This document shows, one piece after another, positions 1,510 to 8,910 of a stretch of DNA of 15,837 nucleotides. The notes below the pieces were generated by a model, which was given only the letters and a program-made list of their open reading frames with translations, made no database searches and was not told the origin of the DNA. The position numbers and the translations under genes were made by a program. How positions within the stretch are numbered: the first letter of the stretch is position 1; every line of letters starts with the position of its first letter. Source of the DNA: Candidatus Zhuqueibacterota bacterium (GTDB lineage Bacteria > BS750m-G25); assembly GCA_016783505.1 (NCBI GenBank), contig JADHWK010000050.1, forward strand, positions 1 through 15,837. The letters run 5' to 3'.

Positions 1510-1629
1510 GCAGTTATCCGAAATTTTGCATCTAAGCTTACTGGGACAACACGCGAAAGCTATCGATTATTAGTTCAAAGATGCCCGCTACATGGTGCGC
1601 CTGGGAGGCTGAGTGTAAGGAGGTGCAGT
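1510..1629. other. Intergenic gap before helical-repeat gene
   Basis: A 120-bp gap. No terminator or convincing promoter is visible. Its 3' end holds the strong ribosome-binding site TAAGGAGGTG (1616-1625), whose GGAGG ends 6 bases before the GTG at 1630. The transition from GC-richer coding DNA upstream to AT-richer DNA downstream falls about here, so this may be the left edge of an accessory block. Confidence 0.45.
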
Positions 1630-4323
1630 GTGAGACAGGAAAATGTGGTGGAGATCCTAAAGAAGAATGAAAATTATTGCAGTTCTGAGGTCGTGGAAAA
1701 AGCTGAAGCCCTTTTGAATAAATATGCGTCCCAGCCTGCGTTGCTCGAAATACTAGCTGCAGAATTGGAATATTTAGCAGAGCGAAAGTGTTCAGTCTCG
1801 GATTTCTCAGATTTAATAGATGTATATTCCAAACATTACGCGTTCTTTCGCAACATAAATACCCCACTTTCTAAAATCATGGTACAAGAAATAGGTAAGT
1901 GTGTGGTTGGTTTTTCTTCATTGGGTTCGCCATTGGGTGCGATACCTTCTGAGATGCTGGCTTATGTCTACTCAGAATTCTACGATCAGTTTCTAAAGAC
2001 GCTAGACCCTGAATTGACTGTCTTATTTGCTAAAAGTGTTGGTTTCATGTCCCAATACATGCCAATCAAGGTTTTACATCCGGACGTAGTAAAAAACTTA
2101 ATGCAGTTCTATCAGGACAATTGCGATTTCTTCAAAAAAGCTGATGTCAAGTACTGGGTCCTTCTGATAAACCTGTCAGGCAATATCATCTCTTTCACAG
2201 GTGAGACTAAGAATGTTGAGACGTTTTTCAATTTTTATAAAAAGAATCGGAACTCCTTTGGAAAGTTGGACTCCAGTATCGGCAAGGAAATAATAATGGC
2301 AGTCGGGGGCGTACTCAGTTCTGAATCAGATCCCACCGCTACGCGCAAGGTTGCCATTAGACTCGGAAAGATGTTGTTAAGCAATGCACTCACCTTACAG
2401 AATATCGACAAGGGGGTGGCAAAAGCATTGATAAGACAGACTTCGCCTGATGAAGAAGAGACGTTCAGAGAAGACCTTACCAAAATACTCTTAACCCTAT
2501 GCTGTGAGGCGTCCTCTTCTTTGGCTCAACTGAAAGGCGATGTTCTCTCGGCAACTATTTCTGAAATCAAGCAAACGATTTGCAGAACAGGAACCGAAGA
2601 AGCCGCAAGCGCACTTTTAAAGATCTATGTGGCGACTGCCGGGTTCCTCGCATCCCTAGAGCCAGAAATTGCCGAAGAGTTGGTCCGTTTAGCAGAATAC
2701 TTGTTTCGCGACACAGCTAATCAGCCAGGAATTATCAAACATATGGAGATTCTTGCTGAATACGCTTGGCTTTATAGCGACCTGGGAATTCATATATCGA
2801 AAAATATACTTGAGTTCACCAGCATCGAATTTACCGTTGACGGCAATGAAAAACATACTAGAAGACTTATGGAGTTCTACTCACGACACGGAAAACATTT
2901 TAAAGATGTTAATGCCGACATCGTTGAAGATCTTGTCGAACACTGCAATTCCTTTCTAATTGATGAAGACAATCAGGAACTAGCGGAGTTTATACTCAAG
3001 CTATGCGCAGGCGAGTACGAGGATGGACAAAAGTTCAATAGATCGTTAGCCAAAGAGATAGAGGCAAGAGTGGAAGAAGCGGCCAAGCAAGGCCTGCCGG
3101 AGACTGCCTTGGAGAAAACATTGATAGCGAGATTAAAACAACTGCCTAAAAAATGGGAGCCTAAAATACCGCCGAAAGGGCTAACAGTAGCAGCTTATGT
3201 GGCTTCTAAGAAGGACGTTGGTGGCCAGGACGTGCAGCCAGGTGATGCTTTTATGTCAGCGTCTACCCTAGCATTGGCAAATCAATGTCTCTTTAGCGGG
3301 CTTAAGCAAAACGCACCGTGGACTTGTGCCTATTCCATTGTTTGTCTTTCGTCTTTGGTTGAGGCTCTCGTCTCACAAAATCGCATAATTTACATTTACG
3401 ATGAGCCGCTTTTCTCTGAACGGCTCCCAATGAAGAGATGGGTCTGGGGTCTCCCAGACAAAGAGCGTCGGCTTCTTGCGCGCATCGAGTCACTCTTAAA
3501 AACGCCAGCATTAAGGCGAAGAGGAGAATTCCTTAATTTTCTGAAAGGTTATGGACTCTTTCGAAAGCTTGCTGAAGAAGCTGCCACCTATCTCAAACTT
3601 TCTTCCGTTCCTTTCGATAAAAAATGGACAGAAGATTATTTAGAGAAGCTGGCTCTCCATACCGCTGACACCCTTGAATTTTGCAGGTTTAAGAATTTTC
3701 TATACTTACCTAATCCCGTGGAGTCTACGTTTTCTACATATCATTTAGTGAACGAAAATTTGCGCGGCGCATCGGCAGCGCGAATTGCGATCATGTTAAT
3801 AGAAAGTGCCAGAGAGCGACAAGCAGTTAAAGCAAACCAAAGAAAGCAAGCTAAAGTATTTGATACCCGCCTTCCAATGATTTTTGCTGCAGTACTAAAA
3901 GAAGCCGATAAGCCTGAGGACATTATTCCTATCGCTTTACAAATGCGCGCGACCAAGGAAGCCAAGGTGTTCAGAGAGTGGGTCGTTTCTGTGGATAATG
4001 ATAGGTCTTTGGGAAACTTTAATAAAGAACTCGACGAGGTCCAAAATTTAGCTGACAGCTTGGCAAGTCGCGTAAAGGAGAGACCGAGGCGTATATCACT
4101 TCAGTTTGGCATCTCTGTCATCCCGCCTGCGCCGTCAATCGGGGTTTCCGTCGATGGTCCAGAATTAAGAGGGGCGCTGTTGACGAAACGGAAGAAGCAT
4201 CTTACCTTCCTTCATTCTATATTTGATGTGAGCATGTCCATAGCAAACTTAAGTAGAGAGATAAACAGAGTGTTCAAAATTAGGACAGATACAATGAAAG
4301 AGGTCATCGAACATATGTGGTAG
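1630..4323 (+). CDS. Unrecognised 897-aa alpha-helical repeat protein
   Basis: I do not recognise this protein. It has no signal peptide or membrane segment, so it is probably cytoplasmic. Residues ~20-460 contain a degenerate repeat of the form L-x-x-[FIV]-Y-x6-[FL]-x-x-[LVA]-[DNE], followed by a second amphipathic helix. The lead tyrosines are Y66, Y114 (off register by one), Y161, Y203, Y333 and Y417, i.e. spacings of 42-48 residues or multiples of them, implying a stacked-helix (alpha-solenoid) fold. Residues 515-600 form a less regular stretch (around YIYDEPLF, 588-595). A C-terminal part (~710-815) holds LPMIFAAVLKEADKPEDI and FREWVVSVDND, a pattern I believe recurs in uncharacterised bacterial proteins. 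The GTG start is set by the strong ribosome-binding site TAAGGAGGTG. DNA is more AT-rich than in the flanking housekeeping genes, and a HicBA pair follows, suggesting horizontal transfer. No catalytic motif is evident, so a scaffold or binding role is only a guess. Confidence 0.8.
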   Translation: MRQENVVEILKKNENYCSSEVVEKAEALLNKYASQPALLEILAAELEYLAERKCSVSDFSDLIDVYSKHYAFFRNINTPLSKIMVQEIGKCVVGFSSLGSPLGAIPSEMLAYVYSEFYDQFLKTLDPELTVLFAKSVGFMSQYMPIKVLHPDVVKNLMQFYQDNCDFFKKADVKYWVLLINLSGNIISFTGETKNVETFFNFYKKNRNSFGKLDSSIGKEIIMAVGGVLSSESDPTATRKVAIRLGKMLLSNALTLQNIDKGVAKALIRQTSPDEEETFREDLTKILLTLCCEASSSLAQLKGDVLSATISEIKQTICRTGTEEAASALLKIYVATAGFLASLEPEIAEELVRLAEYLFRDTANQPGIIKHMEILAEYAWLYSDLGIHISKNILEFTSIEFTVDGNEKHTRRLMEFYSRHGKHFKDVNADIVEDLVEHCNSFLIDEDNQELAEFILKLCAGEYEDGQKFNRSLAKEIEARVEEAAKQGLPETALEKTLIARLKQLPKKWEPKIPPKGLTVAAYVASKKDVGGQDVQPGDAFMSASTLALANQCLFSGLKQNAPWTCAYSIVCLSSLVEALVSQNRIIYIYDEPLFSERLPMKRWVWGLPDKERRLLARIESLLKTPALRRRGEFLNFLKGYGLFRKLAEEAATYLKLSSVPFDKKWTEDYLEKLALHTADTLEFCRFKNFLYLPNPVESTFSTYHLVNENLRGASAARIAIMLIESARERQAVKANQRKQAKVFDTRLPMIFAAVLKEADKPEDIIPIALQMRATKEAKVFREWVVSVDNDRSLGNFNKELDEVQNLADSLASRVKERPRRISLQFGISVIPPAPSIGVSVDGPELRGALLTKRKKHLTFLHSIFDVSMSIANLSREINRVFKIRTDTMKEVIEHMW

Positions 4324-4594
4324 TAAAGTTGCCAATCCTCGATAATATACTTGTCCAGGTAAGGTTTCACAACTATGAGGGGCCAACATAACGACACAGT
4401 GAAACCAGTAAAGTTTTCGATCCAGCCGCAGCTTTAATTAAATGTCACAAGAGAGGGACCCATAACTTCGGATAACATCGGCTTTCTGGTTCGCTATGCT
4501 CTCCAAAATTGGTTTGCGGCTAACTTCAGAAAGCTGAGAACGATATATGCCATATTTGAGCGAATAAAGCTATAGAAGAAAGGAGGAGGATAGC
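4324..4594. other. Intergenic region upstream of hicBA
   Basis: A 271-bp AT-rich gap without a gene. It holds an 8-bp inverted repeat (4481-4534, listed separately), a small inverted repeat ATATG-C-CATAT (4545-4555) that could be part of a hicBA operator or -10 region, and the strong ribosome-binding site AAGGAGGAGGA (4580-4590) just before the ATG of hicB. No clear terminator follows the 897-codon gene. The hicBA promoter is expected here, but I cannot fix its -35 and -10 boxes. Confidence 0.4.
4481..4534. repeat. Long-loop inverted repeat
   Basis: GCTTTCTG (4481-4488) and CAGAAAGC (4527-4534) are perfect 8-bp arms. The 38-base loop contains a smaller hairpin, CCAA-AA-TTGG (4503-4512). This could be a structured leader or a palindromic element. 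The size (54 bp) resembles an integron attC site, but I see no RYYYAAC/GTTRRRY core pair at the ends, so that reading is not supported. Confidence 0.35.
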
Positions 4595-4837
4595 ATGTTA
4601 ACAGAATACATCAATGCTGCAATGAAAAAAGCTAAGTATGAAATTCTTTCTGACGACAACACGTTTTATGGGGAGATTCCCGGCTTTGACGGCGTCTATG
4701 CCAATGCTGGTACCCTTGAAGCATGTCGGGATGAATTGGAGGAAGTTTTAGAAGAATGGATTTTCTTTAGGATATCTCGCAACCTACCATTGCCAACAGT
4801 TGAAGGAATTGAACTGACAATTAAGGAAGCGGTTTGA
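4595..4837 (+). CDS. hicB: HicB-family antitoxin
   Basis: An 80-residue protein of the HicB/UPF0150 family, the antitoxin that binds and blocks the HicA mRNA interferase. The family signature is visible: FYGEIPGFDGVYANAGTLEA (residues 24-43), then the helix CRDELEEVLEEWI, matching the usual pattern of E-I-P-x-x-x-G-x-x-A-x-G-x-T-x-x-E-[AC]. The protein stops right after this partial RNase-H-like fold and has no C-terminal DNA-binding (HTH or RHH) domain, so repression of its own promoter by HicB alone is doubtful. A strong Shine-Dalgarno (AAGGAGGAGG) precedes the ATG. The stop TGA overlaps the ATG of hicA, indicating coupled translation. Antitoxin-first order is common for this sub-type. Confidence 0.9.
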   Translation: MLTEYINAAMKKAKYEILSDDNTFYGEIPGFDGVYANAGTLEACRDELEEVLEEWIFFRISRNLPLPTVEGIELTIKEAV

Positions 4838-5055
4838 TGCCTCGTTTTAGGCCTATAAAAAGAAGAGAGTTGATACATTATTTGAGAGTTTTAGGCTTCG
4901 AGGGCCCTTATTCTGGAAGGAAGCACCAATTCATGATTAAGGGTGAAATTGTTTTACGACTTCCCAATCCCCATCAGAGTGATATTAGTAAAGAATTGCT
5001 TTCCAGAATTATTAGGCAAGCAAAGATTGATAAAAAGATATGGGAAGAGCTATAG
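4837..5055 (+). CDS. hicA: HicA-family mRNA interferase toxin
   Basis: A 72-residue HicA/YcfA-type toxin with the double-stranded-RNA-binding-like fold. It cleaves mRNA and halts translation unless bound by HicB. Visible hallmarks are RELIHYLRVLGFEG near the N terminus, the catalytic histidine in GRKHQFM, and the strand-loop IVLRLPNPHQSDISKELLSR with the conserved [IL]P-N/H-x5-I-x-x-x-[ST]-[LI] pattern. The start is placed at the ATG (4837-4839), which overlaps the hicB stop as TGATG. An in-frame TTG one codon upstream (4834) is less likely. AAGGAAG at 4823-4829 can serve as ribosome-binding site. The key histidine is present and the frame is intact, so the toxin looks active. Confidence 0.9.
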   Translation: MPRFRPIKRRELIHYLRVLGFEGPYSGRKHQFMIKGEIVLRLPNPHQSDISKELLSRIIRQAKIDKKIWEEL

Positions 5056-5153: not shown

Positions 5154-5317
5154 AATTTGTTTGGGGAGTGACAACAGACTAGGGGAACGCATTTTCCTTG
5201 CGATCGGTCAGGCGCCCGATTGAAAAGTACGCCACAAAACCAAAATTTCGGGATTACTCCTCTTATTCCCACTTTTATACAGCAGATCATTGCCGCTGGC
5301 GAATTGATGAAAGGTCA
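5154..5317. other. Gap between hicA region and Cys-cluster gene
   Basis: No well-supported gene. The frame of the downstream protein is open back to a TTG at 5198, adding 40 residues (beginning RSVRRPIEKYATKPKF) that lack obvious protein character. I therefore place the start downstream. Another frame, ending at a TGA at 5220-5222, is also open for about 50 codons, so this may be degraded coding sequence. Confidence 0.35.
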
Positions 5318-6124
5318 ATGGATCGCATGGATAAAGAACGCCTCAAGAAACTCGCTGGAAACCCAAAGTTCATTCCGGGTATTTATAATTCCTGTGATCG
5401 GTGGTGTGAACGTTGTCCGTTCACCTCACGCTGCCTGAATTTCGCAGTCGGTGAAGAACAATTTAATGATCCAAAATCCCGTGACATAAATAACAAGGCT
5501 TTCTGGGCAAAGCTGTCGGAAACGTTTCGGCTAACGCTTGAAATGTTGAAAGAAATGGCGGAGGAGGAGGGCATTGATCTGGATTCCATTGATCTTGAGA
5601 AAGGAGTGGAGGAAGAGAGGCGCAGAAGAGTAACTGCCAAGAACCACGAATGTTCCCGTGCGGCGAAGGTCTATGGGGAAATGGTGGATAACTGGTTCGA
5701 TTCAGCAAAAGGACTATTTGAAAAAAAAGGTGATGAGCTAAGCTTAAAAGTACGGCTCGAGATACCGGATGTCAACCCAATTGGTGAAGCCGCCAGCCTC
5801 AAAGATGCAGTGGAAATCATCCGCTGGTATCAGCATCAGATTTACGTCAAACTTATGAGGGCAATTCGAGGGAGCTTGCAAGAAAGACCGGAGATTCTGG
5901 ATGAATTTCCCAGGGACTCGGATGGTTCAGCAAAGGTGGCGTTGATTGCTATGGATCGTTCGATTGCTGCCTGGGGAGAAATCGGTAACCATTTCCCTGA
6001 ACGAGAGGATGACATCCTCGATCTGCTTGTGCATCTTGACCGGCTACGCAGGAAAACCGAGAAAGTTTTCCCTGCGGCAAGGGCATTTGTCCGACCGGGA
6101 TTCGACGAAGTAGAACACGGATGA
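5318..6124 (+). CDS. Hypothetical protein with four-Cys cluster
   Basis: A 268-residue protein from the ATG at 5318, with GAAAGG just upstream. ATG 5327 (residue 4) is an equally plausible start, and a TTG at 5198 would add 40 residues. The distinctive part is FIPGIYNSCDRWCERCPFTS (residues 18-37), giving cysteines 26, 30, 33 and 39 spaced C-x3-C-x2-C-x5-C. This is a probable metal (Zn or Fe-S) site. The first three match the radical-SAM spacing C-x3-C-x2-C, but the rest of the protein is helical, charged and too short for that fold. Residues 63-120 and 160-250 look helical. From memory, similar 'YNxCDRWCERCPFTSRC' proteins occur as conserved hypotheticals in Bacteroidetes and deltaproteobacteria-like genomes, but I cannot verify this. 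There is no signal peptide. Function unknown. Confidence 0.75.
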   Translation: MDRMDKERLKKLAGNPKFIPGIYNSCDRWCERCPFTSRCLNFAVGEEQFNDPKSRDINNKAFWAKLSETFRLTLEMLKEMAEEEGIDLDSIDLEKGVEEERRRRVTAKNHECSRAAKVYGEMVDNWFDSAKGLFEKKGDELSLKVRLEIPDVNPIGEAASLKDAVEIIRWYQHQIYVKLMRAIRGSLQERPEILDEFPRDSDGSAKVALIAMDRSIAAWGEIGNHFPEREDDILDLLVHLDRLRRKTEKVFPAARAFVRPGFDEVEHG

Positions 6125-8177: not shown

Positions 8178-8185
8178 AATGTGTA
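8158..8185. promoter_or_regulatory. Inverted-repeat operator candidate
   Basis: TACACATT (8158-8165) and AATGTGTA (8178-8185) form perfect 8-bp arms that bracket the -10 box (8172-8177). This is a typical place for an autoregulatory operator of a ribbon-helix-helix antitoxin, whose dimers bind short inverted repeats. Binding is inferred from position and family only. Confidence 0.5.
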
Positions 8186-8216
8186 TTATAAAGAGGTTAA
8201 AAAGAGGGAGTTTGAG

Positions 8217-8456
8217 ATGATCAGGATAAATGCAACTTTTGATGAGGATTTCTTGAAGCGGGTGGATCAGGAGGCTCAAAGAGAAAAGACCAGCAGAAGT
8301 GGGTTTATTCGCAAGGCCATTGAAGAGTACTTGCGTATGAAACAAAGGGAAGATCAAATCCGAAGGGCTATGTCTATCCAGGATTCCATTAGAAAGAAGA
8401 GCGGGTTAAGAAATGCTTTCCAACAGATCCGGGCTAATCGAAACCGAAGATGCTGA
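8217..8456 (+). CDS. Ribbon-helix-helix (CopG-like) antitoxin
   Basis: A 79-residue protein. Residues 1-40 show the RHH fold: strand MIRINATF, helix EDFLKRVDQEAQREK, turn TSRSG, helix FIRKAIEEYLRMKQ. RHH dimers insert the strand into the DNA major groove. The basic, helical C-terminal tail (40-79) is the expected toxin-binding part. The ATG at 8217 is chosen because AGAGGGAG (8203-8210) lies 6 bases upstream and the predicted transcript starts after the upstream GTG (8181). The gene overlaps the PIN-domain toxin gene by 44 bases, so the two are co-transcribed and probably translationally coupled. An operator-like repeat over its promoter suggests autoregulation. Confidence 0.85.
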   Translation: MIRINATFDEDFLKRVDQEAQREKTSRSGFIRKAIEEYLRMKQREDQIRRAMSIQDSIRKKSGLRNAFQQIRANRNRRC

Positions 8457-8910
8457 GGTATATATTTTAGATTCCTCAGTAGTTATAAAATGGTTTTCTG
8501 CTGAGGATGAACCTTACCTGAAGGAAGCCCTCCTTCTTCGCAGAGGGTTTTTAGAGCAACGGTGGTGTCTGGCCATCCCCGACCTGGTCTTATATGAAGT
8601 GGCCAATGTTTTACATATCAAAACACCGTTGACTGTCCGGGATGTTGAGAATGCACTCGCCAGTTTAGAATTGATGGGATTGGAGGTCATTTTTCCTGAG
8701 CTTTCGTTATTGTGTAGAGCGGTCTTTTTTGCTGAAGAATGGGGGCTTTCAGTGTATGATGCCGTTTTTGTGGCCCTCGCCGAAGGTACGGGTTTCCCCT
8801 TGATTACAGCTGACGCGGAATGTCTAAGAAAACTTGAGGGTCATAGACTTCCTGAGAATTTACAGGTTTATCTATTACAAGATCTTGGCCTTACAGAATC
8901 AATATTATAG
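8413..8910 (+). CDS. vapC: PIN-domain ribonuclease toxin (VapC-like)
   Basis: A 165-residue PIN-domain protein, most likely a VapC-type endoribonuclease held inactive by the preceding RHH antitoxin. The acidic residues that bind Mg2+ are all visible: D20 in YILDSSVVIKW, E62 in YEVANVL, D116 in LSVYDAVFVALAEG and D134 in LITADAECL, so the enzyme looks intact. The ATG at 8413 is the only in-frame ATG/GTG/TTG before the first conserved strand (residues 16-20), which forces a 44-base overlap with the antitoxin gene. No good Shine-Dalgarno is seen, consistent with coupling. The stop lies 8 bases before birA, so readthrough from this promoter into birA is likely. Confidence 0.9.
   Translation: MLSNRSGLIETEDAEVYILDSSVVIKWFSAEDEPYLKEALLLRRGFLEQRWCLAIPDLVLYEVANVLHIKTPLTVRDVENALASLELMGLEVIFPELSLLCRAVFFAEEWGLSVYDAVFVALAEGTGFPLITADAECLRKLEGHRLPENLQVYLLQDLGLTESIL

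Follow-up and report, generated by a model that had tools for sequence, protein, structure and literature searches.

The stretch of DNA analysed here (15,837 nucleotides; hereafter the window) carries a gene for a protein of 897 amino acids that is made up of two parts. The N-terminal half contains a repeat with a period of 42 residues, and the C-terminus (residues ~663-888) is a remote relative, not a member, of the PHROG 13435 family. The chances are about even that the product is a laterally acquired, two-half accessory protein that acts in a conflict with phages or mobile elements. The coordinates of the features are collected in Table 1.

Table 1. Features of the gene for the 897-residue protein and of its HicBA neighbour (window positions; residues in the numbering of the protein)
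Feature	Positions	Strand	Basis
Shine-Dalgarno AGGAGG	1618..1623	+	sequence; 6 bases 5' of the GTG start
897-aa two-part protein: predicted helical repeat half and phrog_13435-like C-terminal half	1630..4323	+	
Repeat units 1-4 (residues 59-106, 107-153, 154-195, 196-237), best-conserved tandem	1804..2340	+	self-alignment, repeat HMM, autocorrelation
Degenerate repeat units 5-6 (residues 238-279, 280-325), period register only	2341..2604	+	offset-42 diagonal 154-435
Repeat units 7-10 (residues 326-367, 368-409, 410-451, 452-493)	2605..3108	+	self-alignment, repeat HMM
Possible counterpart of the N-terminal LIDNAT segment of the family (residues 539-600), with FMSAST in its place and the Asp missing	3244..3429	+	alignment
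C-terminal family region (residues 663-888), including YLPNP (692-696) and LP...EDIIP..LQMR...FREW (748-784)	3616..4293	+	BLASTP, relatives-only HMMs
HicB-type antitoxin (UPF0150), neighbour only	4595..4837	+	E=1.1e-31
HicA-type toxin, neighbour only	4834..5055	+	E=8.8e-8

The reading frame is intact from its GTG start, and the strong Shine-Dalgarno sequence mentioned in the preliminary description is indeed found ahead of it. The gene occurs as a single copy in its own genome, an assembly of 2.5 Mb in 89 contigs that has no match to TIGR02013 (RpoB). Its GC3 is 0.44, compared with 0.53-0.65 for most of the larger housekeeping genes in the window, and its codon fit is low in comparison to the same genes; both halves are alike in their AT-richness relative to the flanking DNA. 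Because of the low GC3 and the poor codon adaptation, a lateral acquisition of the gene would fit. Inverted repeats flank the gene (1513-1528 and 4461-4476) and are, by a hand estimate, within chance expectation. No tRNA or Rfam match is present in the window. With the exception of HicBA and a ribbon-helix-helix/PIN pair, the neighbours in the window are housekeeping genes. This pair (8181-8910), a ribbon-helix-helix reading frame overlapping a PIN-type one as judged by eye, resembles a second toxin-antitoxin module. Other proteins of the window are a 433-residue one (208-1509) with a signal-like start, a weak TPR match and an opening that by eye resembles FlgO/CsgG, and a 308-residue one (5198-6124) with a CDRWCERCPFTSRC cysteine cluster and a lowish GC3 of 0.48; the latter has no family above cut-off and a weak AlaRS-like match (E=2.5e-4).

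The existence of the N-terminal repeat is confirmed by several lines of evidence. Aligned to itself without gaps, the protein matches best at an offset of 42 (residues 154-435), with a score of 70; the top score among 60 shuffles of the N-terminal half is 47. Autocorrelation over residues 54-497 has its peak at a lag of 42, followed by 84, and none of 1000 shuffles reaches this peak. The motif Y-x6-[FL]-x2-[LIVA]-[DNE] occurs in five copies for 0.26 expected, a number attained in none of 5000 shuffles; in the copy at Tyr114 one extra residue is inserted. Furthermore, leave-one-out profiles made from five of six units mostly recover the held-out unit, weakly, at 2.7-10.5 bits (reached by 0-1 of 100 shuffles), with the match for the unit beginning at residue 107 landing at the edge of the repeat that follows. 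The six tyrosines previously listed (residues 66, 114, 161, 203, 333 and 417) are all present, and the pattern described around them, Phe or Leu about seven residues on and then [LVA]-[DNE], corresponds to this motif. The count of six units has to be replaced, since about ten fit the period between residues 59 and 493. Similarly, of the repeat length of 42-48 residues originally proposed, only the period of 42 holds throughout, the first two units alone being longer (47-48). Degenerate copies are found at units 5, 6, 8 and 10; units 5-6 (residues 238-325) escape the repeat HMM, and among units 7-10 only 7 and 9 are canonical.

The repeat has not been assigned to a named family, as had been supposed: no significant match to the protein is found in Pfam, NCBIfam, PADLOC, PHROGs or the sequences of the PDB, and none of the Pfam repeat models matches the 42-residue unit. 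A search with the repeat HMM detects no copy in the C-terminal relatives or in their neighbouring genes, and no relatives of the repeat half turn up in any collection searched. As judged from these comparisons, the fusion of the repeat half to the C-terminal module is unique to the source genome within those collections.

With respect to shape, an AlphaFold2 model of the full-length protein from its single sequence consists nearly entirely of paired helices, at a very low mean pLDDT of 37 that makes it uninformative. A model of two repeats (residues 154-238), for which the alignment was composed of other repeat pairs from the protein itself, has a mean pLDDT of 71, near 80 in the first unit and ~55 in the second, and contains four helices, two per unit (2-17, 20-37, 40-57 and 62-79). 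This supports, at moderate confidence, a helix pair as the predicted structure of each unit and agrees with the helical repeat initially suggested; the model does not extend to the shape of the full array. A solenoid would be the shape of the whole N-terminal half. In the predicted fragment the two helices per unit are reminiscent of TPR, HEAT and similar alpha-solenoids, whereas the 42-residue unit with its Tyr-x6-Phe signature differs from these. Comparison of the two-repeat model with solved structures by Foldseek and VIA-align gives no meaningful match, which shows little for a helical fragment of 85 residues.

Direct searches do not reveal relatives of the protein as a whole. Scans of genome contigs and IMG/VR with it find none, and tblastn returns nothing real from plasmids, with the whole protein and its parts, or from phages, with the whole. 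The best tblastn match, in Rhizobium (E=0.08), comes from a permease gene read out of frame, and the strongest of the weak matches in 386 genomes are, on inspection, a sigma-54 activator, PheT and one unrelated protein. A Trypco1 assignment of residues 791-830 was dropped because it stays below the cut-offs (14.1 for 24.6 bits in Pfam, 14.3 for 23 bits in NCBIfam) and is not matched by any C-terminal relative. Relatives of the C-terminus were located in a different way, by a search of plasmids with a rough, artificial bait of 125 residues, prompted by the likeness of residues 749-815 to an unannotated type of protein. This bait served solely to locate real sequences and carries no evidential weight. 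It led to a Leptospira plasmid protein (E=2e-6), and a profile including it to two cyanobacterial proteins (E ~1e-7), which led in turn to a gene on a Pseudomonas aeruginosa megaplasmid and to a provirus-like IMG/VR contig (L033).

The kinship itself is based on comparisons with these natural sequences. The best pairwise match of the protein is to Leptospira WP_017857411, with 24% identity over 217 residues (BLASTP, single-comparison E=1e-5); both cyanobacterial proteins align over the same region with E=2e-5 to 4e-5. An HMM made from the relatives only, excluding both the bait and the 897-residue protein, scores the latter at 31.3 bits (E=5.6e-9); 1000 shuffles reach at most 5.1 bits and unrelated reading frames at most 6.4. 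When the Leptospira, cyanobacterial, provirus or Pseudomonas lineage is dropped, the score becomes 19.5, 22.9, 36.2 and 33.7 bits, respectively, and the protein ranks first in every case. Invariant positions in the alignment of the six sequences include P696, P749, R773, R782 and P835. The view of the whole protein as an orphan is thus no longer tenable for its C-terminus; the idea that the C-terminal half is a separate domain is supported.

PHROG 13435 matches the provirus member (E=1e-157), a piece of the Pseudomonas gene (E=2e-119) and one of the cyanobacterial proteins (E=2e-14), and not the 897-residue protein, which has no match to it at E<=1 in a PHROGs scan. The likeness to this family resides in a helical C-terminal core, Y-x-P-x-P followed by LP...(E)D...Q-x-R...RE-x, whereas the protein lacks the LIDNAT start and has ~500 extra N-terminal repeat residues. 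The whole N-terminal LIDNAT...VQR motif is absent; the possible counterpart given in Table 1 has a local similarity inside the shuffle range and is not significant on its own. Because of the missing LIDNAT start and the lack of a direct match, the C-terminus is best described as a remote relative of the family and not as a member. In the Leptospira protein (L015:5344-6429) the last 350 residues are laid out similarly, whereas the repeat half is lacking. Only five relatives have been found: the A6 profile yields no more in 386 diverse genomes, and none in two additional phyla (174 and 169 genomes), the latter a result that shows little as it has no positive control.

The genes surrounding the relatives are of a defence type at several loci. 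In the Leptospira plasmid, WP_017857411 is third in an apparent operon, preceded by a gene like PD-Lambda-4_A and one for a 353-residue protein. The first of these (L015:2197-4131) matches the C-terminal half of PD-Lambda-4_A with E=5.8e-72; the N-terminal half is absent. The Pseudomonas member lies downstream of a ResIII/DEAD helicase (ResIII E=3.8e-18) and, two genes away, of a TPR protein of 1015 residues, in which a PIN-TPR-GreABC match (E=2.6e-5, 24.9 bits) stays under the Pfam cut-off of 27.8. The provirus-like member is preceded by a PIN gene and followed by a cytosine methylase, in a setting of phage structural genes. In the cyanobacteria, a PIN gene comes after one copy, and a small reading frame that looks RelE-like by eye comes after the other. 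These five loci, which are anecdotal and have no matched control, are suggestive of a tie between the C-terminal family and defence.

Two of these contexts recall described systems. PD-lambda systems were reported by Vassallo et al. 2022 (PMC9519451), and a review (PMC10952713) lists PD-lambda-4 as having a P-loop NTPase. The C-terminal half of its A component adjoins the Leptospira family member, whereas the 897-residue protein and its relatives match no PD-lambda-4 protein and the former has no P-loop NTPase; a PADLOC scan of it for PD-Lambda-4_A and _B finds neither, the only match being an irrelevant one to ZorG (E=0.02). The PIN type of PIN-TPR-GreABC was described in the TPR-GreA/B-C-PIN conflict system (Kaur et al. 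2021, PMC8195603). A TPR protein with such a match is encoded near the Pseudomonas member, whereas the repeat studied here has 42 residues and TPR 34, and a Pfam scan of the 897-residue protein gives no TPR, GreA/B-C or PIN domain. As observations on these loci, the Leptospira operon, with the C-terminal half of PD-Lambda-4_A and then two small unannotated proteins, may be a variant of PD-lambda-4, and the TPR protein with the ResIII-type helicase (L032:11693-18029) on the P. aeruginosa megaplasmid may form a defence cassette. The Pseudomonas family gene (L031:3510-7966) is split by reading frames named by eye as a reverse transcriptase of the group II intron type and as transposases.

In the favoured reading, the N-terminal half (about residues 20-500), as a predicted solenoid of ~10 two-helix repeats, most likely provides a surface to which a partner or an invader molecule binds. 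Detection or docking of this target or partner would fall to the solenoid, and the C-terminal half (about 540-897), a remote relative of a rare family of prophages, plasmids and cyanobacterial accessory loci, would relay the signal within a response against phages or mobile elements. This domain is probably non-catalytic, because the Asp of LIDNAT, conserved in several relatives, is missing. The sensing step and the relay are proposed along with the defence role, which is suggested by the genes that neighbour the relatives. The gene, the repeat, the C-terminal kinship and the contexts of the relatives are established; the last three support the accessory reading, as do the helix pairs of the two-repeat model and the low GC3 and codon fit. 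Against it stand the small number of relatives, the isolation of the repeat half, the very low confidence of the full-length model, the lack of a direct PHROG 13435 match, the PIN-TPR-GreABC match being below cut-off and the PD-Lambda-4_A match being devoid of the N-terminal half. Of the defence or stress scaffold envisaged in the preliminary description, the defence part is linked to these contexts through the relatives of the C-terminus, and a partnership with HicBA is unsupported. A more specific version, which would make the protein the sensor-scaffold of a defence system not yet described and consisting of a single protein or a few genes, combining the 42-residue repeat with a module employed by prophages, plasmids and cyanobacteria in defence cassettes that otherwise differ, is put forward tentatively and seems somewhat doubtful.

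The main rival to the accessory reading is a lineage-specific cellular scaffold, for example in an envelope or cytoskeletal complex, whose C-terminus has a common ancestry with the prophage/plasmid family and no role in defence. It would agree with the absence of a known function for any member of the C-terminal family, of a catalytic motif and of the repeat anywhere else, and with the housekeeping character of the neighbours other than the two toxin-antitoxin-like pairs. The low GC3 and codon fit, and the location of the relatives on prophage, plasmid and toxin-antitoxin-rich loci, argue against it, and it appears rather unlikely. A PIN-like nuclease would explain the LIDNAT start (strand, Asp, Asn-Ala-Thr, helix) as the first PIN-type active-site motif, which the provirus, Pseudomonas and cyanobacterial members conserve together with Asp residues further on, and would make the 897-residue protein a degenerate or RNA-binding version. 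However, no family member has a Pfam PIN match, the spacing of the acidic residues differs from the usual PIN set, and the protein reads FMSAST at the place in question, so this is improbable.

A tripartite toxin-antitoxin system, with HicBA and the protein working together, is suggested by the common strand, the AT-richness of both and the distance of 271 bases from the stop codon to the start of HicBA. HicBA likewise has a low GC3 (0.37) and codons that are poorly adapted relative to the window's housekeeping genes. However, the module is complete, with overlapping HicB and HicA genes and a strong Shine-Dalgarno of its own, and it is found beside none of the five relatives. On these grounds, and given the gap, a partnership with HicBA is unsupported, and the tripartite system is quite improbable. 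An artefact, either a gene foreign to the genome or a chimera, has some basis in the assembly (60% complete and 1.8% contaminated), which is the lone representative of its phylum in the genome collection searched. Against this, the frame runs unbroken for 897 codons behind a good ribosome site, the AT-richness relative to the flanks is similar in the two halves, and typical genes lie on either side; misassembly or contamination is therefore highly improbable.

An apparent orphan can thus be linked to a sparse, unnamed family that is spread over a plasmid of the Spirochaetota, a megaplasmid of the Pseudomonadota, a provirus-like contig and the Cyanobacteria. The novelty lies in the 42-residue repeat, for which there is no named family here; the C-terminal family was known already, only as an unnamed PHROG. 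Repeatedly placed beside genes of a defence type, this family provides a concrete and testable candidate module, here fused to a new type of helical repeat.
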